Source: Acidobacteriota bacterium
GTDB lineage: Bacteria; Acidobacteriota; Vicinamibacteria; Vicinamibacterales; UBA2999
Length of the DNA stretch: 64,000 bases
Reading direction: 5' to 3'
NCBI GenBank assembly: GCA_030697165.1
Contig: JAUYQQ010000008.1
Span: 377,001-441,000 of the forward strand
Under the pieces are notes generated by a model. That model made no database searches and had not been told where the DNA came from. It worked only from the letters and a program-made list of their open reading frames with translations. The translations under genes were made by a program, and so were the position numbers. Below, one piece after another: positions 5,939-58,150 of the stretch; position 1 is the first letter of the stretch, and each line of letters opens with the position of its first letter.

Positions 5939-6010
5939 TAGCCAGTAGCCAGTAGCCAGTAGCCAGAAGGACTGAGCCTTTCTGGCATCTGGATACTGGA
6001 ATCTGGCTAC
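5937..6010. repeat. CCAGTAG palindromic array, locus a (atpH-atpA)
   Basis: Four left-arm AGTAGCC units end in AGAAGG. After a short centre the right arm reads CTTTCTGGCATCTGGATACTGG in the inverse sense. The arms can pair over about 25 bp. It interrupts an otherwise tight atp operon. Confidence 0.85.
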
Positions 6011-7556: not shown

Positions 7557-7630
7557 CCAGTAGCCAGTAGCCAGTTAGCCAGAAGGACGCTTGTCTTTTC
7601 TGGCATCTGGCATCTGGCATCTGGCTACTA
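7555..7630. repeat. CCAGTAG palindromic array, locus b (atpA-atpG)
   Basis: The left arm AACCAGTAGCCAGTAGCCAG runs to about 7583. The right arm TCTGGCATCTGGCATCTGG and CTGGCTACTA inverts it. It starts at the atpA stop codon. Confidence 0.85.
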
Positions 7631-8531: not shown

Positions 8532-10146
<1,615 letters not shown>

Positions 10147-10571: not shown

Positions 10572-10660
10572 CGCCAGTAGCCAGTAGCCAGTAGCCAGAA
10601 GCCAGTAGCCAGAAGAGCTCTTGTCTCCTCTGGCATCTGGCTACTGGATACTGGATACTT
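10572..10660. repeat. CCAGTAG palindromic array, locus d (after atpC)
   Basis: Five left-arm units to about 10613 face a right arm CTGGCATCTGGCTACTGG with two GATACTG units. It separates the atp cluster from the ABC exporter genes and could act as a terminator. Confidence 0.85.
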
Positions 10661-11589: not shown

Positions 11590-12960
11590 ATGAAGCCCGC
11601 CATTGACGTCATCAACGTCTCGAAGGTCTACCGGCGCTACGCGCGGCGGCGGCAGTTTGCCACCCTCAAGTCGGCGTTGCTCGACGGCAGCCTCCTCGGC
11701 GACCTGAAGCCGGACGAGACGTTTCAGGCGCTGAAGAACGTGTCGTTCTCGGTGCCGAAGGGCTGCACTTACGGCGTGATCGGCAGCAACGGCTCGGGCA
11801 AGAGCACGTTGCTCAAGTGCGTGGCCGGCATCACGCGGCCCACCGAGGGCGAGGTCAAGGTTGACGGCCGCATCTCGGCGCTGATCGAGCTTGGCGCCGG
11901 CTTCCACCCCGAGATTTCCGGCCGCGAGAACATCTTCATCAACGGCATCATGCTGGGCCTCAGCAAGAAAGAGGTGATGCGGCGCTTCGACGAAATCGTC
12001 GAGTTTGCCGAGATGCAGGACTTCATCGACGCCCCGGTCAAGACCTACTCGTCGGGCATGTATATGCGCCTGGGTTTTGCGGTCGCCATCCACGTGGATC
12101 CCGAAGTGCTGCTGGTGGACGAAGTGCTGGCGGTCGGCGATCAGGGCTTTACCCACAAGTGCCTCGACAAGTTCTCGGAGTTCCGCCGTCGCAACAAGTC
12201 GATCCTGCTCGTTACCCACTCGCTCGACCTGGTCGAGAAGTTCTGCGACGAAGCGCACTGGCTCGACAAGGGCGTATCGAAGGGCGAGGGCGACCCCAAG
12301 AAGGTGGTCGCCGCGTACGTCATGAACGTCGAGGACAGCGAAGAGAACTCGCTGGCCAAAGCAGAGTCCGCGCGCCTGGCCGCGACAGCTTCGGAACCGG
12401 CCGTAGGGTCGGACTTCAGTCCGACCGATACGTCCGAACCGGGAACCGGAGAGGCCCCGCAGAACCCGGTGGACGATGCGGAGACGAACCGCGATGGGTT
12501 CAAGGCGACCGAAGGTCGATGGGGTACGCGCGAGATCGAGATCACGGACGTCTCGATCAGCGGCCCCGACGGCGAGTCGGGTCACGTGTTCCAGAGTGGC
12601 GACGCCATCACGGTGCACATGACCGTGACGGCCAAGGAGCCGATCACCGACTTCGTGTTTGGCCTCGGCCTGTTCAATGCCGACGGCGTGTGCGTGTACG
12701 GCACCAACACCAACCTCGAGGAGTTTCAGCCGTCCGCGATCGACGGCGAGGGCGCGGTGACGTTCGAGATCGACAGCCTCGACCTGGTGGAGGGAACGTA
12801 TCGGCTCGACCTGGCGGCCCACAAGGCCGACGGCTACCCGTACGACTATCACCGCCTGCTCTACACCTTCCGCGTGAAGTCGAAGATCAGGGACGTCGGC
12901 ATCTACCGGCCGGCGCATCGCTGGACCTTCGGCGGCGGGATTACGTTCAGAGGCCAGTAG
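11590..12960 (+). CDS. wzt: Polysaccharide ABC exporter ATPase with C-terminal binding domain (Wzt type)
   Basis: This is the ATP-hydrolysing partner of the permease. The nucleotide-binding domain has Walker A GSNGSGKST (about residues 65-73), signature YSSGMYMRLGFA (about 153) and Walker B VLLVDEVLAVGD (about 174). After a disordered linker (residues about 255-310), a C-terminal beta-sandwich (WGTREIEITDVSI to RWTFGGGITF) matches the Wzt carbohydrate-binding domain that selects the polymer. The linker contains a small palindrome GTCGGACTTCAGTCCGAC (12411-12428) in frame. The stop lies at the first unit of the following array. Confidence 0.9.
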   Translation: MKPAIDVINVSKVYRRYARRRQFATLKSALLDGSLLGDLKPDETFQALKNVSFSVPKGCTYGVIGSNGSGKSTLLKCVAGITRPTEGEVKVDGRISALIELGAGFHPEISGRENIFINGIMLGLSKKEVMRRFDEIVEFAEMQDFIDAPVKTYSSGMYMRLGFAVAIHVDPEVLLVDEVLAVGDQGFTHKCLDKFSEFRRRNKSILLVTHSLDLVEKFCDEAHWLDKGVSKGEGDPKKVVAAYVMNVEDSEENSLAKAESARLAATASEPAVGSDFSPTDTSEPGTGEAPQNPVDDAETNRDGFKATEGRWGTREIEITDVSISGPDGESGHVFQSGDAITVHMTVTAKEPITDFVFGLGLFNADGVCVYGTNTNLEEFQPSAIDGEGAVTFEIDSLDLVEGTYRLDLAAHKADGYPYDYHRLLYTFRVKSKIRDVGIYRPAHRWTFGGGITFRGQ

Positions 12961-13060
12961 CCGGTAGCCAGTAGCCAGTAGCCAGTAGCCGGTAGCCAGT
13001 AGCCAGTAGCCAGAAAGACAAGAGTTCTTCTGGCATCTGGCATCTGGCATCTGGATACTA
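12952..13060. repeat. CCAGTAG palindromic array, locus e
   Basis: Nine left-arm units (some CCGGTAG) end AGAAAGACAAGAG. The right arm is CTTCTGGCATCTGGCATCTGG with CATCTGGATACTA. It also encodes the last codons of wzt. Confidence 0.85.
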
Positions 13061-18970: not shown

Positions 18971-19053
18971 GTAGCCAGAGGCCAGTAGCCAGTAGCCAGA
19001 AAGGCATGAGTTCATCTGGCATCTGGCTACCGGCTACTGACTACTGGCTACTG
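18971..19053. repeat. CCAGTAG palindromic array, locus f
   Basis: The left arm is GTAGCCAGAGGCCAGTAGCC. The right arm CATCTGGCATCTGGCTACCG continues with GCTACTGACTACTGG. It lies between the NusG paralogue and dusB. Confidence 0.82.
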
Positions 19054-19055
19054 AC

Positions 19056-20090
19056 ATGAAGATCGGCAACATCGAACTCGACTCACCGTTTGTCGTCTCG
19101 CCCATGGCGGGCATGACCGACACGGCGTTTCGCCGCCTGGTCAAGCGCCAGGGCGGCTGCGGGCTCGTGGTGTCGGAAATGGTCAGCAGCGAGGGCCTGA
19201 TTCGCGGCATCGATCGCACGCTCGAGTACGCCGAGTACACCGAAGAAGAGCGTCCGGTCTCCATCCAGATTTTCGGCGGCGAGCCCGCGAAAATGGCCGA
19301 GGCCGCGCGCGTCGTAGAAGCCATGGGCGCGAACATCGTGGACGTGAACATGGGCTGCCCCGTCCCCAAAATCGCCAAGCACAACGCCGGCTGCAGCCTG
19401 ATGCGCGAACCGCAGCACGCCGCCGAGATCATTGCCGCCATGACGCGCGCGGTGAAGATCCCCGTCACCGTCAAGATGCGCAAGGGGTGGGACGATGGGG
19501 AGGTGAACGCGCCGGAGTTGGCAAAGCGCGTGGAAGCGGCGGGGGCGGCGGCGATTGCTGTGCACGGGCGCACCGCGAAGCAAAGCTACAGCGGTTCCGC
19601 CGACTGGGACGTCGTTGCCGGCATTGCCCGCTCGGTCAGTATTCCGGTGTTCGGGTCGGGTGATTGCGTCGAGCCCGAAGACATCGTGACCCGCATGCAG
19701 AGTGGCGTGAGCGGCGTCTTCGTGGGCCGCGGCGTGCTGCGCAACCCGTGGATTCTCGCCCAGGCGCGCGACCTGATGGCCGGGCGCCCGGCCCGCCAGA
19801 TCACGGACGAAGAGCGCGGCCAGTTCCTGCTCGACTACATGCAGTTGCTGCTGGCCGACGAGAAGGGCGAGCAGGAGGGGTTTCGCCACCTGGTGGTGCA
19901 ATCGACTCCGCCGCGGGCCGAGGCCAGCAAGGAACGGTGGGTGGTCAACAAACTGCGCGCGCTGTGCACGTGGTACACCAAGGGCTTCGAGGGCGGCGGG
20001 CAGTTCCGCATCGGCATCAACTCGGCGAAGTCGATCGCCGAAGTCGAAACGCTCATCGACAACTTCTTCAGATGTGGTGTCCGCCTTTAG
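19056..20090 (+). CDS. dusB: tRNA-dihydrouridine synthase DusB
   Basis: This FMN enzyme reduces uridine to dihydrouridine in tRNA. The TIM-barrel motifs SPMAGMTDTAFRRL, VDVNMGCPVPKIAKHNAGCS (catalytic Cys near residue 100) and AIAVHGRTAKQSYSG are those of DusB. The VKMRKGWDDG loop is also present. The length of 344 residues is normal. ATG 19056 lies just after the array. The final codons run into a small GTCCGCC/GGCGGAC palindrome. Confidence 0.93.
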   Translation: MKIGNIELDSPFVVSPMAGMTDTAFRRLVKRQGGCGLVVSEMVSSEGLIRGIDRTLEYAEYTEEERPVSIQIFGGEPAKMAEAARVVEAMGANIVDVNMGCPVPKIAKHNAGCSLMREPQHAAEIIAAMTRAVKIPVTVKMRKGWDDGEVNAPELAKRVEAAGAAAIAVHGRTAKQSYSGSADWDVVAGIARSVSIPVFGSGDCVEPEDIVTRMQSGVSGVFVGRGVLRNPWILAQARDLMAGRPARQITDEERGQFLLDYMQLLLADEKGEQEGFRHLVVQSTPPRAEASKERWVVNKLRALCTWYTKGFEGGGQFRIGINSAKSIAEVETLIDNFFRCGVRL

Positions 20091-29388: not shown

Positions 29389-29789
29389 CCAGTAGCCAGT
29401 AGCCAGTAGCCTTCCGATGTAGCCTCCGGCTTTCTTGTCCCGCCGTAGCCTTTGGCGAAGGCGGAAGCCGGAGCTTCCCTCAGAGGTCCAGCCGCTGCTG
29501 GACCCAACTTCCCAAATTCGTCAAATCCACCAAAACCGTAAGTGCCTGTACCAAATAAATTTTGCCCGCCAATTCTATGACCGACTGCTCGGGTAAAACG
29601 CCATTATTTTGGCGCCGATCGCAGTGTAACCAGACGCAGTTTCGACAATGCCGGCTTGGGCAGATGCGTGTAAGTCACTGCAATTAAAGGTCTTTAGCAC
29701 GGTAGCGCTGGCAGCCTGCACGCTGCTGACCACCCTGACACAGCTCAGGCATCACCTTTGCCTTAGGGCAGGCAACGGAGATTCTTGAG
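29389..29789. other. 400-bp leader region before the sigma factor gene
   Basis: It holds a one-sided CCAGTAG arm (29387-29411) and an R7 palindrome (about 29418-29474). After these comes about 300 bp of less GC-rich sequence with no ORF I trust. An inverted repeat CGCCA-N6-TGGCG lies at 29599-29614. A GG-N10-GC pair at 29710-29723 (TGGCAGCCTGCACGCT) meets the minimal sigma-54 spacing but lacks most consensus bases. I looked for a c-di-GMP riboswitch here and did not find one. Confidence 0.4.
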
Positions 29790-32861: not shown

Positions 32862-32965
32862 ACCAGTAGCCAGTAGCCAGTAGCCAGTAGCCAGTAGCCA
32901 GACAAGAGTTCTTCTGGATACTGGCATCTGGATACTGGCATCTGGCTACTGGATACTGGATACTG
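32862..32965. repeat. CCAGTAG palindromic array, locus h
   Basis: Five left-arm units end AGACAAGAG. The right arm has TTCTGGATACTGGCATCTGG and further CTGGATACTGG units. It separates the divergent PCYCGC and diguanylate cyclase genes. Confidence 0.85.
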
Positions 32966-34203: not shown

Positions 34204-34375
34204 TCACGACGGTTCAATCACGACGGTTCAATCACGACGGTTCAATCACGACGGTTCAATCACGACGGTTCAATCACAAGGGTTCAATCACAAGGGTTCT
34301 TAGAACCATCGTGCTTGAACCACCGTGCTTGAACCCTCCTGTTTGAACCACCGTGCTTGAACCCTCGTGTTTGAA
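34204..34375. repeat. GGTTCAATCACGAC palindromic array
   Basis: About seven 14-bp left-arm units (GGTTCAATCACGAC, later GGTTCAATCACAAG) meet a GGTTCTTAGAACC centre at about 34296-34308. Five inverted units (GAACCACCGTGCTT type) follow, so the arms can pair over about 70 bp. It lies between the convergent GGDEF and MFS genes and would make a strong bidirectional terminator. Confidence 0.9.
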
Positions 34376-38176: not shown

Positions 38177-38206
38177 TTCTGGCTACTGGCTACTGGCTAC
38201 TGGCTA
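38177..38206. repeat. CCAGTAG arm, locus i (one orientation)
   Basis: CTGGCTACTGG units (four) occur with no inverted partner. They fill the gap between the YhaM-like and FabZ-like genes, both on the minus strand. Confidence 0.8.
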
Positions 38207-38687: not shown

Positions 38688-40713
38688 ATGCGCAAGACCC
38701 TGGTGGCCGTGGCCCTGCTGGCCGTCTCGCTCACGAACCCGTTCGCCCAGTCAAAGCGGGCCGTCACCTTCGACGATGTGCTGAATGTGAAGGCGGTGGG
38801 CGGGGCGACCATTTCGCCGGATGGCGCCCAGGTGCTGTACACGGTTCGCCAGTGGGTCGCGGAGAAAGATCGGATGGAGGCCCGGACGCACATCTGGATC
38901 GTGCCGACGAGCGGCGCCACGCCGGCCCGCCAGCTCACCTCGGGCGAGAAGGGCGACACCCAGCCGCAATGGTCGCCCGACGGCCGCTACATCAGCTTCG
39001 TGTCGGCGCGCGGCGCCGGCGAAGAGGTCAAGGCGCAGGTCCACGTCATGCGCGCGGACGGCGGCGAGGCGTGGAAGCTGACCGACAGCAAAGAGAACGT
39101 CTCGAGCTACTCGTGGTCGCCCGACAGCACGCGCATTGCCTATGTCGCGATCGACCCGCGCAGCGCGGAAGAAGAAGCCAACATCAGGAAGCGCGATGAC
39201 GAGCGCGTGTTCGAAGGAGATTTTCGCTACGCCCACATCTGGGTCGTGGACGTCGACCAATCCCGCCACGCGCATCACCGAAGGCAAGACCTACACCGTG
39301 GCTGGCGCGCCGTCCTGGGCGCCCGACGGCAAGCGCTTCGTGTTCGGCGGCGGCGCCACGCCCATGCTGCGCGACAACCGCCGCGATATCTACCTGGCCA
39401 GTCTCGAGCCGAAGCAGGTCGAGAAGATCAGCACCAACTTCGGCAGCGACACCTCGCCGCGCTGGTCACCCGACGGCAAGTCGATTGCCTGGACGTCGGA
39501 ACCGTACACCGGCGCGCCGCTGCCTGACGGCACGGCGCCGGGCGTGACCATGCAGTCGAAGCTGATGCTGTACGACGTCGCCGCCAGGTCGATCAAGGAC
39601 GTGTCGTCGCCTGGCTTCGATACCGATGCGGGCAACCCGGTGTGGACGGCCGAAGGCAATCGCGTGGTGTTCGTCGCCGGCAAGCGCGCCTACAACGAGG
39701 CGTTCGCGTACGACCTCACCACCGGCCGCTACACGCAGTTGAGCTCCAGGAAGACGCTGCAGGGCATCTCGATCAGCACCGATGGCCGCACCATTGCCCT
39801 GACCATGGATACGCCCGACCAGGCGTCGGAGGTCTACGTCACCGACCCGGCGTACCAGAACTTCCGCAAGCTCACGAACACCAACCCACAGCTGGCCGAG
39901 CTCGCGCAGGGCGACACCGAAGTGGTCACCTGGAAGGGGGCGGACGGCCTCGAAGTGGAAGGCGTGCTGCTTAAGCCCGTGGGCTTCACGGCCGGCACGA
40001 AGTACCCGACGCTGGTCGTCGCGCACGGCGGCCCGGCGGGCGCCTTCGTCAACGGCTTCCGGCTGGGCGGGCTCGAGGGCGGCCAGGTGTGGGCCAACAA
40101 GGGGTGGGCGGTGTTCTATCCCAACCCGCGCGGCAGCACGAACTACGGCGAGAAGTTCCTGCAGCACAACATCAACGACTGGGGCGGCGGCGACTACAAG
40201 GACATCATGACCGGCGTCGATGCGCTGGTCGCCCGCGGCATTGCCGATCCCGACAAGCTGGCGCACATCGGCTGGAGCTACGGCGGCTACATGACGGCGT
40301 GGGTGATCACCCAGACCACCCGCTTCAAGGCGGCCATGGTCGGTGCCGGCCTGACCAACATGTGGAGCATGTACGGCACCAATGACATTCCGAGCGTGCT
40401 GATCAGCTACTTCGGCGGCATTCCGAACGAAAAGACACTGCCGCTGTACCTGGAGCGCTCGGCCATGTCACACATCGACAAGGTGACGACGCCCACGCTG
40501 ATCCTGCATGGGGCCAATGACGAGCGGGTGCCGGTGGGCCAGGCGCTGGAGCTGTACCGCGGGCTGAAAGACCGCGGCAAGCCCACCGAATTGGTGCTCT
40601 ACCCGCGAGCAGGTCACGGCATTACGGAGTACTATCATCAGAAGGACCGCATGCAGCGGATCCACGACTGGGTGACCAAGTACACGTTGCCTGCAGTAGC
40701 CAGTAGCCAGTAG
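38688..40713 (+). pseudogene. S9-family prolyl oligopeptidase/acylaminoacyl peptidase, frameshifted
   Basis: A signal peptide (MRKTLVAVALLAVSLTNPFA) and beta-propeller blades (PQWSPDGRYISF, SYSWSPDSTRIAY) run to WVVDVD at about 39257. The protein then continues in the next frame from TNPATRITEG. The C-terminal alpha/beta hydrolase has GWSYGGY (Ser), GANDERVP (Asp) and AGHG (His), so the triad is intact. The span of 2026 bases is one more than a multiple of three. It is either a one-base gain/two-base loss or a sequencing error. GGAGG precedes ATG 38688. The last residues (VASSQ) come from the CCAGTAG array. Confidence 0.88.
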
Positions 40714-40796
40714 CCAGCCAGTAGCCAGTAGCCAGTAGCCAGTAGCCAGAAAGACAAGGGCTCTTCTGGCATCTGGCATCTGGATACTGGATACTA
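40694..40796. repeat. CCAGTAG palindromic array, locus j
   Basis: Eight left-arm units end AGAAAGACAAGGG. The right arm is TTCTGGCATCTGGCATCTGG with GATACTGGATACTA. The first units encode the end of the peptidase. Confidence 0.86.
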
Positions 40797-40805
40797 ATCA
40801 GAACA

Positions 40806-42590
40806 ATGACTGAATCAGCGCCGCATGGCGCCGCCAGCAGCACGGCTTCGGACGCCGAGCTGCTGGCCATTCTCGCGGAGCTCGGGCGCGAGGTCAGCTC
40901 GGTGCTCGACCTCGACACCCTCCTCGAGCGCATCCCACAACTGATCTCCCGGCTCACCAAGTTCACCGTCTTCTCGGTCTACCTGCTCCACGAGAAGCGC
41001 GAGGAGCTGACCATTGCCTACGCCGAGGGCTACCCCGACGAAATCGTCCAGCACTTCACGCTGCAGGTCGGCCAGGGCATTGTCGGCACGGCCGTCGCCG
41101 AGCAGCGGCCGATCCTGCTGAACGACGTCGATTCCGACCCGCGCTACCTGGCGGTGGTGCCCGGGGCCAAGTCGCAGCTGGTCGTGCCGCTGCGCAACAA
41201 GGCCAAGGTGATTGGCGCCCTCAACCTGCTGAGCGATCAGCTGGGCGCGTTCACCGAACGCGACGAGTGGATCCTGCGGCAGTTCGGCGCCCACGTGGCG
41301 CAGGGCATTGCCACCGCCCGCCTGTTCGAGTCGGAGCGCGAGTACACCGAGACGCTGGAAACGCTGGCCGAGATCGGCCGAGAGATGACCGCGATTCTCG
41401 ACCCCGACGAGCTGCTGACGCGCCTGGCCCACCTGATCAAGCGGGTGATCGACTACCGCATCTTCGGGATCCTCCTGCTGGACGAAGATTCGGGCATGCT
41501 CGAGATGAAGGTGGCCATCAAGTACGGCGACGACCCGGCGGCCATGGAGCCGGTCAAGCTGGGCGAAGGCCTGGTCGGCTACGCCGCGCTGCACAAGGAA
41601 GTGGTGCTGGTACCCGACGTGCTGAAGGACCCGCGCTACATCCAGGCAGTGCCGGGCGTGCGATCGGAGCTGGTCGTGCCGCTGCTGCTGAAGGACCGCT
41701 GCATCGGCGTCTTCGACCTCGAAAGCCCGGAGCCCGACGCCTTCAACAAGAACCACGTCAAGCTGCTGACGCTGCTGGCCTCGGAAGCCGCGGTGGCCCT
41801 CGAGAACGCGCGGCTCTACGAATCGATCCGCGCCAACGAGGCCCGCTTCGAGAAGGAACTGCGCTTCGCCAAGCGCGTGCAGATGGCGCTCTTGCCGCAG
41901 GAGCTGCCCAAGCGGCTGCGCGGGGTGGACGTGGCCTGGCACTTCGACCCCGCCCGCGAGCTCGGCGGCGACCTGTGCGACTTCCTGTCGCCCGAGCCGA
42001 ACACCCTGGTGGTGGCGGTGGGCGACGTCTCAGGCAAGGGCGTCCCGGCGGCGCTGTACGGCGCCGCCATCGGCGAAATGGTGCGTGGCCGCACCTTCCG
42101 CCGCCGCCTCGAGAAAGAGCGCAGCACGCCGGCCGCCGTGCTGGCCGGCATGAACCGCATTCTCCACGAGCGCAACCTGGAGGAGTACTACTGCACCCTC
42201 TGCTACGCGATGTTCGAGTTCAAGAAGCAGATCGTGACGTTCGCCAACTCGGGGCTGCCGTACCCGGTGCGCTGCACCAACGGCAAGGCGACGGCGATCG
42301 ACATGCCCGGTGTGCCGCTCGGCTCATTTGGCAGCTCCGCCTACGACGAAGTGCAGGTGCCGCTCTTGCCCGGTGACGTGTTCGTGTTCTTCTCGGACGG
42401 CATTTCCGAGGCGTTCAACGAAGCCGGCGAGGATTTCGGCATGCCGCGGCTGCTCGAGGTGATCGAACGCACGCACGCGAAGCCGGCGAAGGAAATTGTC
42501 GGGGAGCTGTTCGGCGCGGTCCAGGCGTTTTGCGGCGACGCCGAGCAGAATGATGACCGAACTGTAGTGGTGGTGAAAATAAACCAGTAA
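40806..42590 (+). CDS. GAF-GAF-PP2C (RsbU/SpoIIE-type) serine phosphatase
   Basis: Two GAF domains (LAELGREVSSVLDLDTLLER and LAEIGREMTAILDPDELLTR) are followed by a linker helix (RFEKELRFAKRVQMALLPQE) and a PP2C phosphatase domain with ELGGDLCDFL, VAVGDVSGKGVPAALYGA and FFSDGISEAFNE. It is cytoplasmic, with 594 residues. Such proteins dephosphorylate anti-anti-sigma factors in partner-switching stress pathways. A related membrane phosphatase lies at 55.7 kb; no RsbV/RsbW genes are visible. Confidence 0.92.
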   Translation: MTESAPHGAASSTASDAELLAILAELGREVSSVLDLDTLLERIPQLISRLTKFTVFSVYLLHEKREELTIAYAEGYPDEIVQHFTLQVGQGIVGTAVAEQRPILLNDVDSDPRYLAVVPGAKSQLVVPLRNKAKVIGALNLLSDQLGAFTERDEWILRQFGAHVAQGIATARLFESEREYTETLETLAEIGREMTAILDPDELLTRLAHLIKRVIDYRIFGILLLDEDSGMLEMKVAIKYGDDPAAMEPVKLGEGLVGYAALHKEVVLVPDVLKDPRYIQAVPGVRSELVVPLLLKDRCIGVFDLESPEPDAFNKNHVKLLTLLASEAAVALENARLYESIRANEARFEKELRFAKRVQMALLPQELPKRLRGVDVAWHFDPARELGGDLCDFLSPEPNTLVVAVGDVSGKGVPAALYGAAIGEMVRGRTFRRRLEKERSTPAAVLAGMNRILHERNLEEYYCTLCYAMFEFKKQIVTFANSGLPYPVRCTNGKATAIDMPGVPLGSFGSSAYDEVQVPLLPGDVFVFFSDGISEAFNEAGEDFGMPRLLEVIERTHAKPAKEIVGELFGAVQAFCGDAEQNDDRTVVVVKINQ

Positions 42591-42662
42591 CCAGATGCCA
42601 GTATCCAGATGCCAGAAGAACTCTTGCCTTTCTGGCTACTGGCTACTGGCTACTGGCTACTA
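42583..42662. repeat. CCAGTAG palindromic array, locus k
   Basis: The left arm CCAGTAACCAGATGCCAGTA meets a centre near 42620. The right arm CTTTCTGGCTACTGGCTACT continues to the atpB stop codon, which it supplies. It lies between convergent genes. Confidence 0.84.
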
Positions 42663-44265: not shown

Positions 44266-45603
44266 CTAATACACGCCGAGGTAGCGATCCATCTCCCACG
44301 GCGAGACGTGGCGGATGTACTCGTCCCACTCCGCGCGCTTGGCGTCGAGGAAGTGCGTGAAGATGTGCTCGCCGAGCGTTTCCTTTACCAGCGCATCCTT
44401 TTCGAACTCGTCCAGCGCTTCGCTGAGGTTGGCGGGCAGATCGTCGATGCGCAGGTGGCGGCGCTCGCGATGGCTCATCTTGTAGATGTTCTTGTTCACC
44501 GGCGGGCCCGGGTCCACCTTGTGGTCAATGCCGTCGAGGCCGGCGCGCAACATCACCGCCAGCGCCAGGTAGGGATTGCACGAGGGATCGGGCATGCGCA
44601 GCTCGACGCGGGTGGAATTGTCGCGCGACGCCGGCACGCGCACGAGCGGACTGCGGTTCTTCTCGGACCAGGCAATCGCGGTCGGCGCCTCGTAGCCCGG
44701 CACCAGGCGCTTGTATGAGTTCACCAGCGGGTTGGTAATGGCGCAAAAGCCCTTGGCGTGCTGCAGCAGCCCGCCGATGTAGTTCATGCAGGTCTGGCTG
44801 AGCTGGATTTCGTTGGCGGGATCGAAGAAGGCATTCTTGCCGCCGGTGAACAACGACTGGTGCGTGTGCATGCCCGATCCGTTCACGCCGTAGATCGGCT
44901 TGGGCATGAAGGTCGCGTGCAAGTTATTCCTGAGCGCCACGTTCTTGACGATGAACCGGCAGGTACTCACGTTATCCGCCGTCGTCAACACGTCGTCATA
45001 GTGAAAGTCGATTTCGTGCTGGCCGGGCGCGACCTCGTGATGCGCGGCTTCCACGGCAATGCCCATCTGCTCGAGGGCGATCACGATCTCGCGGCGGACG
45101 TCTTCGCCGAGGTCGATGGGCGCCAGGTCGAAGTAGCTGGCGCGATCGTGGGTCTCGGTGGTGGCGCGGCCGTCGCGGCGCAGGAACAGGAAGAACTCGG
45201 TTTCGGGTCCCGCCATCATGGTGAAGCCGCGGTCGGCGGCCTGGCCGATGGCGTTCTTCAGCGTGGTGCGCGGGCAACCGGCGAACGGGCTGCCGTCGGG
45301 ATTGGCAATGTCGCAGATCAGGCGGCCGACGCGCGCGCCGTTGGCATCGGCCCAGGGAAACACCTGGAAGGTCGAGAGGTCCGGCCGGAGGTACATGTCC
45401 GACTCTTCAATGCGGACAAAGCCTTCGATCGACGAGCCGTCGAACATGATCTTGCCGTCGAGGGCGTGGGCGAACTGGCGGTCGGGCACCTCGACGTTCT
45501 TGATCACGCCCAGGATGTCGGTGAACTGCAGGCGCAGGAACTTGACCCGTTCCTTCTCGGCCCGTTTCAGGATCTCCTGCTTTTCGTCCCCGCTTTTTGC
45601 CAT
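44266..45603 (-). CDS. glnA: Glutamine synthetase (GSI-alpha type)
   Basis: It makes glutamine from glutamate, ammonia and ATP. KFLRLQFTDILGVIKNVEVP, FDGSSIEGFVRIEESDMYL, GSGMHTHQSLF and the ATP-site PGYEAPTAIAWSEKNRSPLV are clear. The 445-residue length and N-terminus resemble the Bacillus-like enzyme, which is not adenylylated, rather than the 469-residue E. coli form. The PII or GlnR-type regulators are not nearby. ATG 45603 is followed upstream by a one-sided CCAGTAG arm. Confidence 0.95.
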   Translation of the reverse strand: MAKSGDEKQEILKRAEKERVKFLRLQFTDILGVIKNVEVPDRQFAHALDGKIMFDGSSIEGFVRIEESDMYLRPDLSTFQVFPWADANGARVGRLICDIANPDGSPFAGCPRTTLKNAIGQAADRGFTMMAGPETEFFLFLRRDGRATTETHDRASYFDLAPIDLGEDVRREIVIALEQMGIAVEAAHHEVAPGQHEIDFHYDDVLTTADNVSTCRFIVKNVALRNNLHATFMPKPIYGVNGSGMHTHQSLFTGGKNAFFDPANEIQLSQTCMNYIGGLLQHAKGFCAITNPLVNSYKRLVPGYEAPTAIAWSEKNRSPLVRVPASRDNSTRVELRMPDPSCNPYLALAVMLRAGLDGIDHKVDPGPPVNKNIYKMSHRERRHLRIDDLPANLSEALDEFEKDALVKETLGEHIFTHFLDAKRAEWDEYIRHVSPWEMDRYLGVY

Positions 45604-45608
45604 AGGTG

Positions 45609-45711
45609 TCAGTATCCAGTATCCAGATGCCAGTAGCCAGATGCCAGTAGCCAGATGCCAGTGCCAGTGCCAGTAGCCAGTAGCCAGTAGCCAGTAGCCA
45701 GTAGCCAGTAG
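45609..45711. repeat. CCAGTAG arm, locus l (left orientation only)
   Basis: About 14 units (CCAGTAT, CCAGATG, CCAGTAG, CCAGTGC) run in the left-arm sense with no inverted arm before the next gene. The matching inverted arm lies beyond that gene at 46138-46245. Confidence 0.87.
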
Positions 45712-45781
45712 GCGCCACCTTTGCGTGCAGAGTTTGCGCCAGGGTCAGTAAGTGCCGCTCCCTAAGTCAGATACTCTGGCT

Positions 45782-46135
45782 ATGGACTATCGCGATTTGG
45801 TTGCCTGGCAACGTGCGATGACGCTGACTGAACTGGTCTACCATTCGACCTCCCAGTTCCCAGCTGAAGAGCGGTACGGGCTGACGTCCCAAATGAGAAG
45901 GGCGGCGGCAGCCATCCCATCGAACATCGCAGAGGGTCAAGGACGCAGGTCGTCAGACGCGGATTTCGCCAGGTTCCTGTCCATCGCCCTCGGCTCCCTG
46001 TGTGAGCTGGAGACTCAGATCGAGTTGACGATTCGCCTGGGTTTCGTTTCCCGGGAGGCTATGGCAACGGTAATCGGTGAGGCCGGGGAGGTCGGGCGAC
46101 TGTTAAACGGCTTGATTCGATCGAAGCAGCACTGA
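45782..46135 (+). CDS. Four-helix-bundle protein (23S rRNA intervening-sequence protein family)
   Basis: The 117-residue protein has the family pattern YRDLVAWQRAMTLTELVY, EERYGLTSQMRRAAAAIPSN, then IAEGQGRR and FLSIALGSLCELETQIELT. Relatives are encoded in intervening sequences of 23S rRNA, in diversity-generating retroelements (bAvd) and as free genes; their function is mostly unknown. ATG 45782 is used. The gene lies exactly between a left CCAGTAG arm (45609-45711) and a right arm (46138-46245), so it would sit in the loop of a long hairpin. Confidence 0.88.
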   Translation: MDYRDLVAWQRAMTLTELVYHSTSQFPAEERYGLTSQMRRAAAAIPSNIAEGQGRRSSDADFARFLSIALGSLCELETQIELTIRLGFVSREAMATVIGEAGEVGRLLNGLIRSKQH

Positions 46136-46137
46136 TC

Positions 46138-46245
46138 GTCTGGCGTCTGGCGTCTGGCTACTGTCTACTGGCTACTGGCTACCGGCTACTGGCTACTGGC
46201 TACTGGCTACTGGCTACTGGCTACTGGCTACCGGCTACTGGCTAC
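46138..46245. repeat. CCAGTAG arm, locus m (right orientation only)
   Basis: About 14 CTGGCTACTGG-type units (including TCTGGCGTCTGG and CTACCGG variants) run in the inverse sense of locus l. The array starts 3 bp after the four-helix-bundle stop and touches the end of the hybrid kinase gene. Confidence 0.87.
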
Positions 46246-48896
46246 TTCAACAGGCGGGTCACTTCTTCGGTGAGTGCCGCGGCCTCGATGGGCTTGGTGA
46301 GATACACGTTGGCCCCGAGCCGCAGCGACCGCAGTTCGCTCGAGGAGCGGTCGGCGCCCGACACTACCACCACCGGGATGCGCGCGTCTTTCGGGTTCGA
46401 CTTGAGTCGCGCCAGCACTTCGTAGCCGTCGATGTTCGGCATCACGAGGTCGAGCACCAGCAGGTCCACGGGCTCGCGTTCGATCGCCGCCAGCGCCTCG
46501 GCGCCGTCACGGGCCTGCAACACGCGATGGCCGTTGCGCGTCAGCGACGCCGTCAGCACCCCCCGCAGGTCGTCATCGTCTTCAGCCACGAGCACCGCGG
46601 CGCCCTTGCGGCTGCCCAGGGCCTGGCTGATCTCGCGCAGCAGCCGATCCAGTCCCTCGCCCTTGGTAACGACCGCGACGCCCTCGGGGCGGCGGCGCGA
46701 ATCGGTCGCCTCGGGCACGCCCGACACGACAATCACGGGGATGCGCGCCAGCGCTTCCTCGCTGCGCAGGCGCTCGATGAAGTCCCAGCCGTCGAGGCCC
46801 GGCATCAGCAGGTCCACGGTGATCGCGTCGGGCCGCATGGTGCGGGCAATGTGCATGGCCGAGGCGGCGTCGCGGGCGTCAAATACCTGGTACCCGGCAT
46901 TGTGCAGCTGCGCCCGGAGCAGCACCCTGAAGTCGTCATCGTCATCGACCACCAGCACGCGGCAGACGGCGAGGCGCGCCGAGCCGTCCTTGTTGGCAGC
47001 CACCGGCGCCAACGGCACGGCGTCGGCCTCTTCGGCCGTGGCCGCCGGCAGCGTGAACGAGAAGCGGGTGCCCTTGTTGACCTCGCTGTCGACAAAGATG
47101 CGCCCGCCGTGCTGTTCGACCAGGGCCTTGGTAATGGCAAGGCCCAGGCCGGTGCCGCCCTTGCGGCGAGACGACGAGCTGTCGACCTGCTGGAACTTCC
47201 TGAACAGGCGGTGCAGGTTCTCGGGAGCAATGCCCTCGCCCTGATCGGCCACCGTCAGCGTGACGGCGGTGTCGGAACCGGTGGCGGTGATCGTCACGGT
47301 GGACCCGTGCGGCGCGAACTTCACCGCGTTCGACAACAGGTTGACCAGCGCCTGGACCATGCGGTCGGGGTCGACCATCACCGGGCGGAGGCGGGCCGGC
47401 AACCTGGCGTCGAGCGTGACCTGCGCCAGGCGCGCCGGGCCCTCGACCACCTGGATCGACTGGCGCACGATGTCGACGACGTTGACCGGCTTGAGCTTCA
47501 GGGTGATGTTGCCCGACTCGATCTTCGCGACGTCGAGCATGTCGTTGATGATGCGGACCAGCCGCTCGCAGTTGTTCAGGGCAATCTGCAGCAACTGCTG
47601 GTGCTCGGGGTGGGGCACCGCATTCGGCTCGTCGAGCACCAGTTGCACCGAGCCGCGAATGGAGGTGAGCGGCGTGCGCAGCTCGTGGCTGACAATCGAC
47701 ACGAACTCGTCCTTCAGCCGATCGACTTCGCGCAGCCGCGAGATGTCCTGGAACGCCACGATCGCCCCGGCGACGTGACCGAGTTCGTTGCAGAGCGGCG
47801 CGCCGCTGGCGAGGATCGGGAAGACCCGGCCATCAGGGTGGTGAATCTCGAGTTCCTCGTTGATGACCGGCTCGCCCGCCAGCGCTCGTGCCGAGATCCA
47901 CTGGTCAGGCGGAATCAGCGTGCCGTCCTTGGCGACGCGCTTGAACCGGGCCCAGTAGCTCTTGCGCAACTCTGGGTTCTGCGGCTCGATGCCGAACACG
48001 TCGGTGGCGGCGCGGTTGCGCAGCCGCACGCTGCCATCGGCGTTGAAGATCATCAGCGCCGCGGGCACGGTTTCAAGGGTGGCCAGCAGGTCGGTGTGCG
48101 CGGCCTCGACGCGGCGCCGGGCTTCGGTCGTTACGCTGGCCAGCTCGCGGGTTTCGCTGAGCGCGGTGGCCAGTTCGCGCTCGCGCGCCTGGATCGAATT
48201 CGACATCCTCGCGAACGAATTGACCAGCACGCCAATCTCATCGTCGCGCAGGGTCTGGTGGGCGGCGCTGAAGTCCCCCTGCTCGATGCGCTCGGCCGAC
48301 ACGGTGAGCTCGCGCAGCGGATCGAGCAGGACGCGCTTGGCCGAGAGCATCAGGAGCGACAAGGTGAGGACGGCGAGGCCGGCCATTAGTCCGATCACCT
48401 GGAAGAAGATGGCGCGCCGCCTCTTCAGGAGATCGGCGCTCGCTTCCGTCAATCGAAACTGATTGGCCTCGAAGTCAGCGACCAACGGTTTGATGGCCTC
48501 GAAGGCCCTGAAACGTTCAAGGGCCGCCGTGTTGCCCGGATCGTTGGCAGTGGTCAGCCACTGTTCGAGCTCGGTGCGAATACGACGGTAGCGGTCCACC
48601 TGGCTCGGCTGGTGCAGCAACGGAGCAATGGCATCGAGCTTCGTCAGAATAACGTTGCGCAGCTCGGCGGCCTCGTCAGACTTCGTGCCGGTCAATGACT
48701 CTTCAAGCTGGAGCTGCGTGAACTCGAGCATGGCGCGCCACAGCTCGGCGTCGAGCTGCTGGATTCGGCCCAGCCGATCGCGCTCAGCGTCCATGGTGCT
48801 GGCAATATTGAGCGCCGCGACCACCAGGCCGATGGCGATGGTCGCCATGAGCACGACGAGCCACAGGGACACAAACGCCCGCGTGCGGATCGTCAC
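46242..48896 (-). CDS. Membrane hybrid histidine kinase (HAMP-PAS-HisKA-HATPase-REC-REC)
   Basis: The 884 residues comprise a first membrane helix (VSLWLVVLMATIAIGLVVAA), a periplasmic helical sensor and a second helix (VIGLMAGLAVLTLSLLML). These are followed by HAMP, PAS (LETVPAALMIFNADGSVRLR), HisKA (SIVSHELRTPLTSIRGSVQL), HATPase (GTGLGLAITKALVEQHGG) and two receiver domains with Asp in TVDLLMPGLDG and VLDLVMPNIDG. It overlaps the upstream receiver gene by 4 bases. Together with the membrane GAF protein it forms a three-gene signalling operon. Confidence 0.93.
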   Translation of the reverse strand: MTIRTRAFVSLWLVVLMATIAIGLVVAALNIASTMDAERDRLGRIQQLDAELWRAMLEFTQLQLEESLTGTKSDEAAELRNVILTKLDAIAPLLHQPSQVDRYRRIRTELEQWLTTANDPGNTAALERFRAFEAIKPLVADFEANQFRLTEASADLLKRRRAIFFQVIGLMAGLAVLTLSLLMLSAKRVLLDPLRELTVSAERIEQGDFSAAHQTLRDDEIGVLVNSFARMSNSIQARERELATALSETRELASVTTEARRRVEAAHTDLLATLETVPAALMIFNADGSVRLRNRAATDVFGIEPQNPELRKSYWARFKRVAKDGTLIPPDQWISARALAGEPVINEELEIHHPDGRVFPILASGAPLCNELGHVAGAIVAFQDISRLREVDRLKDEFVSIVSHELRTPLTSIRGSVQLVLDEPNAVPHPEHQQLLQIALNNCERLVRIINDMLDVAKIESGNITLKLKPVNVVDIVRQSIQVVEGPARLAQVTLDARLPARLRPVMVDPDRMVQALVNLLSNAVKFAPHGSTVTITATGSDTAVTLTVADQGEGIAPENLHRLFRKFQQVDSSSSRRKGGTGLGLAITKALVEQHGGRIFVDSEVNKGTRFSFTLPAATAEEADAVPLAPVAANKDGSARLAVCRVLVVDDDDDFRVLLRAQLHNAGYQVFDARDAASAMHIARTMRPDAITVDLLMPGLDGWDFIERLRSEEALARIPVIVVSGVPEATDSRRRPEGVAVVTKGEGLDRLLREISQALGSRKGAAVLVAEDDDDLRGVLTASLTRNGHRVLQARDGAEALAAIEREPVDLLVLDLVMPNIDGYEVLARLKSNPKDARIPVVVVSGADRSSSELRSLRLGANVYLTKPIEAAALTEEVTRLLK

Positions 48897-50506: not shown

Positions 50507-50612
50507 ACAGTAGCCAGTATCCAGAGGCCAGTATCCAGAAGAGCTCTTGTCTTTCTGGCTACTGGCTACTGGCTACTGGCCACTGGCTACTGGCTACTGG
50601 CCCCTGGCTACT
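50507..50612. repeat. CCAGTAG palindromic array, locus n
   Basis: The left arm CAGTAGCCAGTATCCAGAGG and further units reach AGAAGAGCTCTTGTCTTTCT at the centre. Six right-arm units follow and include the nuoG stop codon. Confidence 0.85.
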
Positions 50613-52437: not shown

Positions 52438-52676
52438 TTTAGGATGATATCCCAAGGGTTCAAACCCGGGGGTTCAAACCCGGGGTTCAAGCACGGAGGT
52501 TCAAGCACGGAGGTTCAAGCACGGGGGTTCAACCACGGCGGTTCAAGCACGGGGGTTCAAGCAGGGGGTTCAAGCACGGGGGTTCAAGCACGGGGGTTCA
52601 AGCACGGGGGTTCTCAGAACCTTCGTGTTAGAACCTGCGTGTTTGAACCGTCGGGTTTGAACCCTGTGATTGAACT
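52438..52676. repeat. GGTTCAAGCACGGG palindromic array
   Basis: This is the largest array in the window. About eleven left-arm units (GGTTCAAGCACGGG, GGTTCAAACCCGGG) reach GGTTCTCAGAACC (about 52609-52621). About four inverted units follow (TTCGTGTTAGAACC, GCGTGTTTGAACC). The arms are unequal. It fills the 245-bp gap between the nuoG and M1 peptidase genes. Confidence 0.9.
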
Positions 52677-58051: not shown

Positions 58052-58150
58052 TCAGGATCAGGGATCAGGGATCAGGGATCAGGGATCAGGGATCAGGGAT
58101 CAGGGATCAGGGATCAGGGATCAGGGATCAGGGATCAGGGGTTCAGGGGT
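58052..58150. repeat. GGGATCA tandem array
   Basis: About thirteen nearly perfect copies of the 7-bp unit GGGATCA occur in one orientation between kbl and the polytopic membrane protein gene, reaching the latter's stop. This is the most regular array in the window, suggesting recent expansion. Confidence 0.92.

Follow-up and report, generated by a model that had tools for sequence, protein, structure and literature searches.

Results

A four-helix-bundle gene is the only gene between two opposed CCAGTAG arrays

The window analysed here, a stretch of 64 kb, contains 71 copies of the heptamer CCAGTAG against 2.65 expected, a number reached in none of 100 shuffles. At one locus, these repeats form two arms around a gene. 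The left arm (45610 to 45711, plus strand) consists of inward-pointing AGTAGCC, AGATGCC and AGTATCC units, with 14 CCAG starts in our scan, and is followed by a 70-bp leader (45712 to 45781, plus strand) that extends to the start codon. The gene (45782 to 46135, plus strand; ATG at 45782, stop codon at 46133 to 46135) encodes 117 amino acids, and the right arm (46140 to 46245, minus strand) presents the left-arm unit in reverse complement (CTGGCTA...GGCTACT). On the left, the start of a glutamine synthetase gene (glnA; 44266 to 45603, minus strand; identified by its translated sequence rather than by a family search) adjoins the left arm. On the right lies a gene for a hybrid histidine kinase with receiver domains (46242 to 48896, minus strand; likewise identified by translation), whose TAG stop codon (46242 to 46244, minus strand) falls within the last unit of the right arm.

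The first-pass annotation had described a single gene between opposite CCAGTAG arms and had taken its product for a four-helix-bundle protein; both statements were borne out. The open reading frame is the sole one between the arms, and its product matches PF05635 with 4e-36 (123.9 bits; curated cut-off 33.8) and TIGR02436, "four helix bundle protein," with 1.8e-35 (121.5 bits; cut-off 24). By sequence, the closest solved structures are PDB 2gsc (XCC0516; 1.2e-27) and 2rld. Searches with Pfam-type (PF05635) and TIGR/NCBIfam profiles revealed no catalytic domain in the protein. It is acidic (pI 6.1), the family having a median pI of 8.0 with 54% of members above 7.5.

To describe the arms, we used a flank score that compares the upstream 600 bp with the reverse complement of the downstream 600 bp. 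The window locus scores 60, and its two inverted arms are built from a single short unit. At this locus, the longest inverted pair that is nearly perfect measures 46 nt with 98% complementarity, its arms lying 468 nt apart. The RNA fold of positions 45600 to 46250 is far more stable than that of shuffled sequences on both strands (z of −8.6 and −9.6; none of 20 shuffles as stable in either case).

CCAGTAG palindromes without the gene are more numerous and share a core of their own

In this genome, gene-less CCAGTAG palindromes are dispersed and outnumber gene-bearing ones. Within the window, such unstranded copies lie at 5942 to 6009 (a solo copy), 7557 to 7627, 10075 to 10143, 10574 to 10657, 12954 to 13057, 18975 to 19060, 32863 to 32962, 40700 to 40793, 42584 to 42659 and 50514 to 50610; arrays with one arm are found at 29389 to 29409 (plus strand) and 38179 to 38206 (minus strand). 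The closely spaced arms that had been noted for the copies elsewhere were confirmed, as the spacing is ∼12 to 17 bp in the other two-armed palindromes of the window, those at 29389 and 38179 being the one-armed arrays. The gene-less copies often have the termini AGTAGCC...GGCTACT in common, and a stop codon often adjoins them. They share a 24-bp core (CCAGAAAGACAAGAGNTCTTCTGG-like), present in either orientation and reversed in the copy at 12954 to 13057, and the gene-bearing copy lacks this core. Because the core differs, a derivation of the gene-less copies from the gene-bearing copy by internal deletion is unsupported.

The triplet (CCAGTAG)3 has 56 matches in this genome and two in 59 other genomes, with no match in eight relatives of the same genus and one match each in 2 of the 51 others. 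Of the 22 further exact (CCAGTAG)3 sites in this genome, 9 are within the window, at C8:382942-427579 (P ∼2e-12, calculated post hoc). Clustering near the gene is not a general rule: among the matches listed, GGGATCA and GGTTCAANCACGG are dispersed across many contigs of the same genome. For three arm units, CCAGTAG, GGGATCA (150 matches) and AGTAGGC, the genome carrying the armed gene ranks first of 60 in matches, a ranking that serves as a consistency check only, given that these very genomes supplied the units. Of the 257 AGTAGGC matches over the 60 genomes, 215 lie in G011, the genome whose locus L051 has this unit in its arms; G024 has six AGTAGGC matches and no PF05635 match at a completeness of 84%. 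GGGATCA arrays are present in 14 of 59 relatives, and this unit is therefore not specific to its carrier.

The window also holds arrays of these other units, i.e., GGGATCA at about 30587 and at 58055 to 58136, and GGTTCAANCACGG at 34309, 37158 and 52484 to 52607, which match the arms of two other four-helix-bundle genes (L002 and L004, respectively). Elsewhere in the genome, inward GGGATCA arms enclose ordinary genes, judged from their translations: a 123-amino-acid thioesterase-like open reading frame (L187; C4:25800-28400) and an FNR-like open reading frame (L188; C13:20200-22800).

Inverted arms flank members of the family in 17 phyla

A whole-genome profile search gave ten PF05635 matches in the genome of the window, nine of them above the cut-off. 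When this gene family was scanned for flanking arms, 8 of the 10 loci had inverted arms with a flank score of at least 20, and the units differ between loci: GGGATCA at L002, a unit of ∼18 bp at L003, GGTTCAANCACGGN at L004, AGGTTCGGAG at L005, AGGGTGCC at L007, a GATTTGGT-like unit at L008 and CAGTTT at L009. The two exceptions by score are L006, where the gene is truncated and an arm, likewise with a unit of ∼18 bp, lies on the right side alone, and L010, a fragment below the PF05635 cut-off.

Taking this genome and its relatives together (39 loci, four of them with a shorter flank, of which L042 has just 100 bp downstream), a score of at least 20 was reached by 29 of the 39 loci in inverted orientation, compared with 6 of 39 in the direct-orientation control and 30 of 1,482 cross-locus pairs. 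We also scanned a public genome collection with a 20-member alignment and took the best 80 of 578 loci, all sharing one conserved peptide; removal of seven loci with a flank below 300 bp left 73, which are not a random sample. At a threshold of 16, 56 of these 73 loci scored in inverted and 11 in direct orientation, against 20 of 1,095 cross-locus pairs and 12 of 706 mock positions taken from the same 73 loci. At a threshold of 20, the corresponding numbers were 39 and 8 of the 73 loci, 4 of 1,095 and 4 of 706. The excess of the direct orientation over the cross-locus level (8 of 73 against 4 of 1,095 at 20 or more) is due to loci whose arrays are nested, mixed or direct. At L096, L135, L137 and L207, both sides carry arrays, but their orientation is direct or mixed.

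Copies lacking arms were few. Beyond the 56 loci armed by score, we inspected 13 of the 17 sub-threshold loci by eye and not blind, leaving out L089, L109, L140 and L149. Eight had degenerate inverted arrays on both sides, L096, L135 and L137 had the direct or mixed arrays mentioned above, L128 had an array on one side and L121 had none.

With 500-bp flanks and all sources combined, 105 of 135 loci reach a score of 16, i.e., 33 of 38 from this genome and its relatives, 57 of 75 from the genome collection and 15 of 22 from viral contigs, the last including several near-duplicates. A phage collection gave no match at 1e-5. Each of 17 named phyla has at least one locus with a score of at least 16; Bacteroidota have the lowest proportion (13 of 24). 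Among the 105 loci, the repeat period is 7 bp in 71 and 8 bp in 14, and 11 more have periods of 14 and 16.

The repeat unit follows the protein lineage, and the protein is under purifying selection

Unit similarity increases with protein similarity (Mantel r 0.084; none of 999 permutations as high) in a test of 103 loci and 5,238 of 5,253 pairs, 15 pairs having been dropped for homologous flanks. Unit similarity is 0.019 at protein score ratios of 0.3 to 0.4 and 0.138 at ratios of 0.6 to 0.8; the effect is small and not monotonic, the value below a ratio of 0.2 (0.029) lying above the middle bins. The distinction between 7-bp and 8-bp periods requires 11 changes on a tree of 89 proteins, compared with a mean of 16.6 and a minimum of 12 in 300 shuffles, none of which was as low. 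This tree is based on few columns and has many unresolved forks, and near-duplicates as well as loci with other or unclear periods were dropped from it. It contains a clade of six proteins (SH-aLRT 98), all with 8-bp CA[AG]AGNNN-like units, that spans four phyla: Nitrospirota (L078), Balneolota (L088), Pseudomonadota (L113) and Bacteroidota (L119, L108 and L138). Similarly, AGGATTC/AGGATCA units are common to L077 of Bacteroidota and L133 of Betaproteobacteria. Because unit length tracks the protein tree, including the 8-bp clade of four phyla, we conclude that gene and arms travel together.

The four-helix-bundle protein is under purifying selection. Among nine pairs of protein genes, dN/dS is 0.04 to 0.16 in L108/L138, L043/L046, L051/L056, L163/L165 and L043/L044, with dS at ∼2 or more in the last two pairs. 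The ratio is 0.28 in L170/L171, on very few changes, and saturated in L164/L165; two near-identical pairs gave no usable value.

Sites with and without the element

The element is absent from the junction of glnA and the kinase gene in all five genus relatives read. This junction is compact in G002, G005 and G007 and holds a gene for a PDZ protein in G008 and G001; G006, in which the kinase match lies at a contig edge, was left out of the comparison. Two of the compact junctions carry a different short hairpin, GGCAAACCTTCAGGTTTGCC-like in G002 (L205) and GTCCGGCTTCAGCCGGAC in G005 (L206), and the site therefore seems prone to hairpin repeats.

Homologues occur in twenty plasmid records, of which we read ten. 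The gene lies between cas6 and cas4 (two plasmids), between nrdB and nrdA, after a TraM gene or after an integrase gene. The arms are clearly inverted at six of the ten plasmid loci, degenerate at three and mixed at one (L207; direct score 62.5 against 29.5 inverted). The cas6/cas4 position, within a CRISPR locus, is occupied in plasmids of Pseudanabaena (L207) and Anabaena (L214); as the units differ, two independent insertions at this junction are possible.

Both states of a site, filled and empty, are found in cyanobacterial plasmids. Plasmid sites are filled at L211, L219, L209, L223 and L210 and empty at L217, L218, L220, L221, L222 and L224, with the gene and both arms jointly present or jointly absent. 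At the integrase site, two plasmids of one strain carry the element and three others, in which the genes are 3 bp apart, lack it; here, the left flank is identical and divergence begins at the right end of the element. At the TraM site, the element is present in two strains and missing from two plasmids of a third, and a fourth strain has a gene-less GGGAACA-armed stretch there. Between the two carriers, the copies of the element at this site agree in 475 of 478 aligned bases (99.4%), compared with 82.3% and 91.4% identity for the flanks. Identity is also higher in the final 60 to 100 bp of the left flank, and spread by homologous recombination through the flanks is therefore possible. At three plasmid sites, no target-site duplication is visible, and plasmids with and without the element do not have the same bases next to the site.

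Discussion

Here, we describe a four-helix-bundle gene enclosed by inverted arrays of a short repeat. We consider it probable that positions 45610 to 46245 are one copy of a widespread mobile element, with the protein as cognate factor of the arms and the gene-less palindromes as non-autonomous derivatives. As judged from sequence, such an element would measure ∼0.5 to 0.65 kb and comprise one four-helix-bundle gene and two inverted arrays of a lineage-specific unit, usually of 7 or 8 bp. The first-pass annotation had left two possibilities side by side, namely that gene and arms form one mobile unit or that the gene inserted into the centre of an array. The former is now well supported by the arms in 17 phyla, the unit following the protein tree and the sites that lack the element. 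The latter has become less likely, with the 24-bp core missing from the gene-bearing copy and the GGGATCA arms around ordinary genes remaining in its favour.

The foremost rival, though an unlikely one, is that a Y1 (REP-associated) transposase acts in trans to move the arms, with the four-helix-bundle gene as cargo or helper. We keep it as a rival because the counts of PF05635 and Y1 matches per genome correlate across the order (60 genomes; rho 0.58, or 0.48 once genome size is accounted for). The genome of the window has six Y1_Tnp matches, on contigs C2, C10, C13 and C23, the window itself being on C8, and CCAGTAG contains GTAG, a tag of known REPs (PMC3733652). However, 5 of 43 PF05635 carriers have no Y1 match, including G042 with 17 PF05635 matches at 94% completeness, so that a strict dependence on Y1 does not hold in these carriers. 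Moreover, the units GGGATCA and GGTTCAANCACGG do not contain GTAG, the PF05635 gene is alone between the arms at the window locus, and unit length tracks the four-helix-bundle protein. A third possibility, that the transcript hairpin is copied by a reverse transcriptase in trans with the protein acting like Avd, seems very improbable to us. The hairpin RNA is very stable, and the protein has a weak bAvd match (26 bits; cut-off 40) and a weak NCBIfam Avd match (23 bits; cut-off 80); against this, RVT_1 is absent from the genome of the window, which has ten PF05635 matches and a completeness estimate of 100, and from 26 other carriers, i.e., from 27 of 43, among them the single-contig genomes G038 and G050. 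Dependence on a reverse transcriptase of the RVT_1 family is ruled out by these genomes.

Ranking second among the rivals, and in our judgement also improbable, is the insertion of the gene at the centre of a pre-existing palindrome made by the host, in which case the arrays would be a host feature such as a terminator, a regulator or a slippage product. This would fit the excess of gene-less over gene-bearing CCAGTAG palindromes, the gene-less core that is unlike the interior of the gene copy, the arms that surround other genes and the mostly stable positions of Xanthomonas arrays in the excerpted text of PMC4692102. It fits less well with the near absence of (CCAGTAG)3 from 59 relatives and with plasmid sites where the gene and both arms are present or missing as one. 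Unit class tracks protein lineage across phyla, which is hard to explain by genes dropping into host-made arrays.

In the reading that we prefer, that of a mobile element with its own cognate protein, an oligomer of the protein would bind several repeat units of the folded arms, and the arm-bound protein would promote insertion at gene junctions, the DNA being cut or copied by host enzymes. Gene-less palindromes would spread wherever a cognate gene exists or once existed, and slippage would alter the length of the arms; a reverse transcriptase of the RVT_1 family is not needed. Several observations count against this reading. The pI of 6.1 of the window protein lends no support to the arm-binding steps, and the protein shows no clear sign of nucleic-acid binding. 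Furthermore, profile searches give no catalytic domain, plasmid sites show no target-site duplication, the Mantel correlation is weak, some loci have direct or mixed arms, and the gene-less core is absent from the gene copy. The same applies to the low proportion of armed loci in Bacteroidota, the GGGATCA arms around ordinary genes, the GGGATCA arrays of relatives, the AGTAGGC matches in G024, the possible recombination of the near-identical plasmid element and the correlation with Y1 counts. In Xanthomonas, the stable array positions in the available text of PMC4692102 argue against recent movement.

To our knowledge, the four-helix-bundle family is widespread and has no known function, and we know of no accepted origin for short tandem-repeat arrays, which are common intergenic features in many bacteria. 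A pairing of arrays with genes would explain both and predicts a partner gene for each array family. Any movement of DNA by the protein would take place without a recognised catalytic domain. Since units vary between lineages, recognition of the repeat by the protein is directly testable through unit swaps. More speculatively, these elements could be a pan-bacterial class of mobile DNA without a recognised transposase, recombinase or reverse transcriptase, in which a four-helix-bundle protein of 120 residues, assembled into a ring, reads the 7- or 8-base unit in the inverted arms as a changeable address and drives the copying of the element and its gene-less derivatives. On that view, the class would include as branches the heptamer arrays of cyanobacteria, Xanthomonas and other bacteria as well as the intervening sequences of 23S rRNA; we regard this wider proposal as possible but tentative. 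Among the top-ranked papers of the open-access PMC literature, the scope of our survey, we recognised none that links four-helix-bundle genes to tandem-repeat arms.

Avd works with a reverse transcriptase in diversity-generating retroelements. The window protein is distantly similar to Avd, below both curated cut-offs (26 against 40 and 23 against 80 bits), and, unlike in Avd systems, its genome has no RVT_1 reverse transcriptase. REP/REPIN sequences with their RAYT (Y1 transposase) genes, as portrayed in the portions of the literature drawn on here, resemble the element in that one gene is tied to dispersed palindromic intergenic repeats that act as non-autonomous derivatives. By contrast, the window protein, a four-helix bundle, is unrelated to RAYT and has no recognised catalytic domain, and the arms are arrays of mostly 7- to 8-bp units that differ from gene to gene in one genome. 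No Y1 transposase gene lies between or beside the palindromes of the window, and between the arms there is only PF05635.

In the available sections of PMC4990558, the 23S rRNA intervening sequences of Leptospira, Coxiella and other bacteria carry the S23p open reading frame, are located within helices of the rRNA and undergo excision by RNase III; their presence is sporadic and horizontal spread has been inferred, and the solved four-helix-bundle protein of Xanthomonas is a homopentamer. The window element resembles them in that complementary ends enclose a single open reading frame of the same protein family. It differs in being flanked by glnA and a histidine kinase gene outside an rRNA gene and in having lineage-specific tandem-repeat arms and gene-less relatives throughout the genome. 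Thus, of the link to these sequences drawn in the first-pass annotation, family membership and the design of a stem-loop with an open reading frame stand, but the window copy is not in an rRNA gene.

TAACTGA arrays in Beggiatoaceae are described without a mechanism, and with no partner from this protein family, in the text portions of PMC4679880. For the heptamer arrays with the unit GGGAATC in Xanthomonas and GGGGACT in Nostoc, the available parts of PMC4692102 report an intergenic location, two Xanthomonas genomes with 70 and 75 convergent inverted pairs, and no general association with mobile elements; 90% of the Xanthomonas campestris arrays lie between the same open reading frames in a related species, with less change than controls. 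Those parts name no protein partner for the arrays, and xcc0516 does not appear in the main text. The likeness to the window element lies in the intergenic heptamer units, in the convergent inverted pairs and in the solved protein 2gsc (XCC0516), which comes from Xanthomonas campestris.
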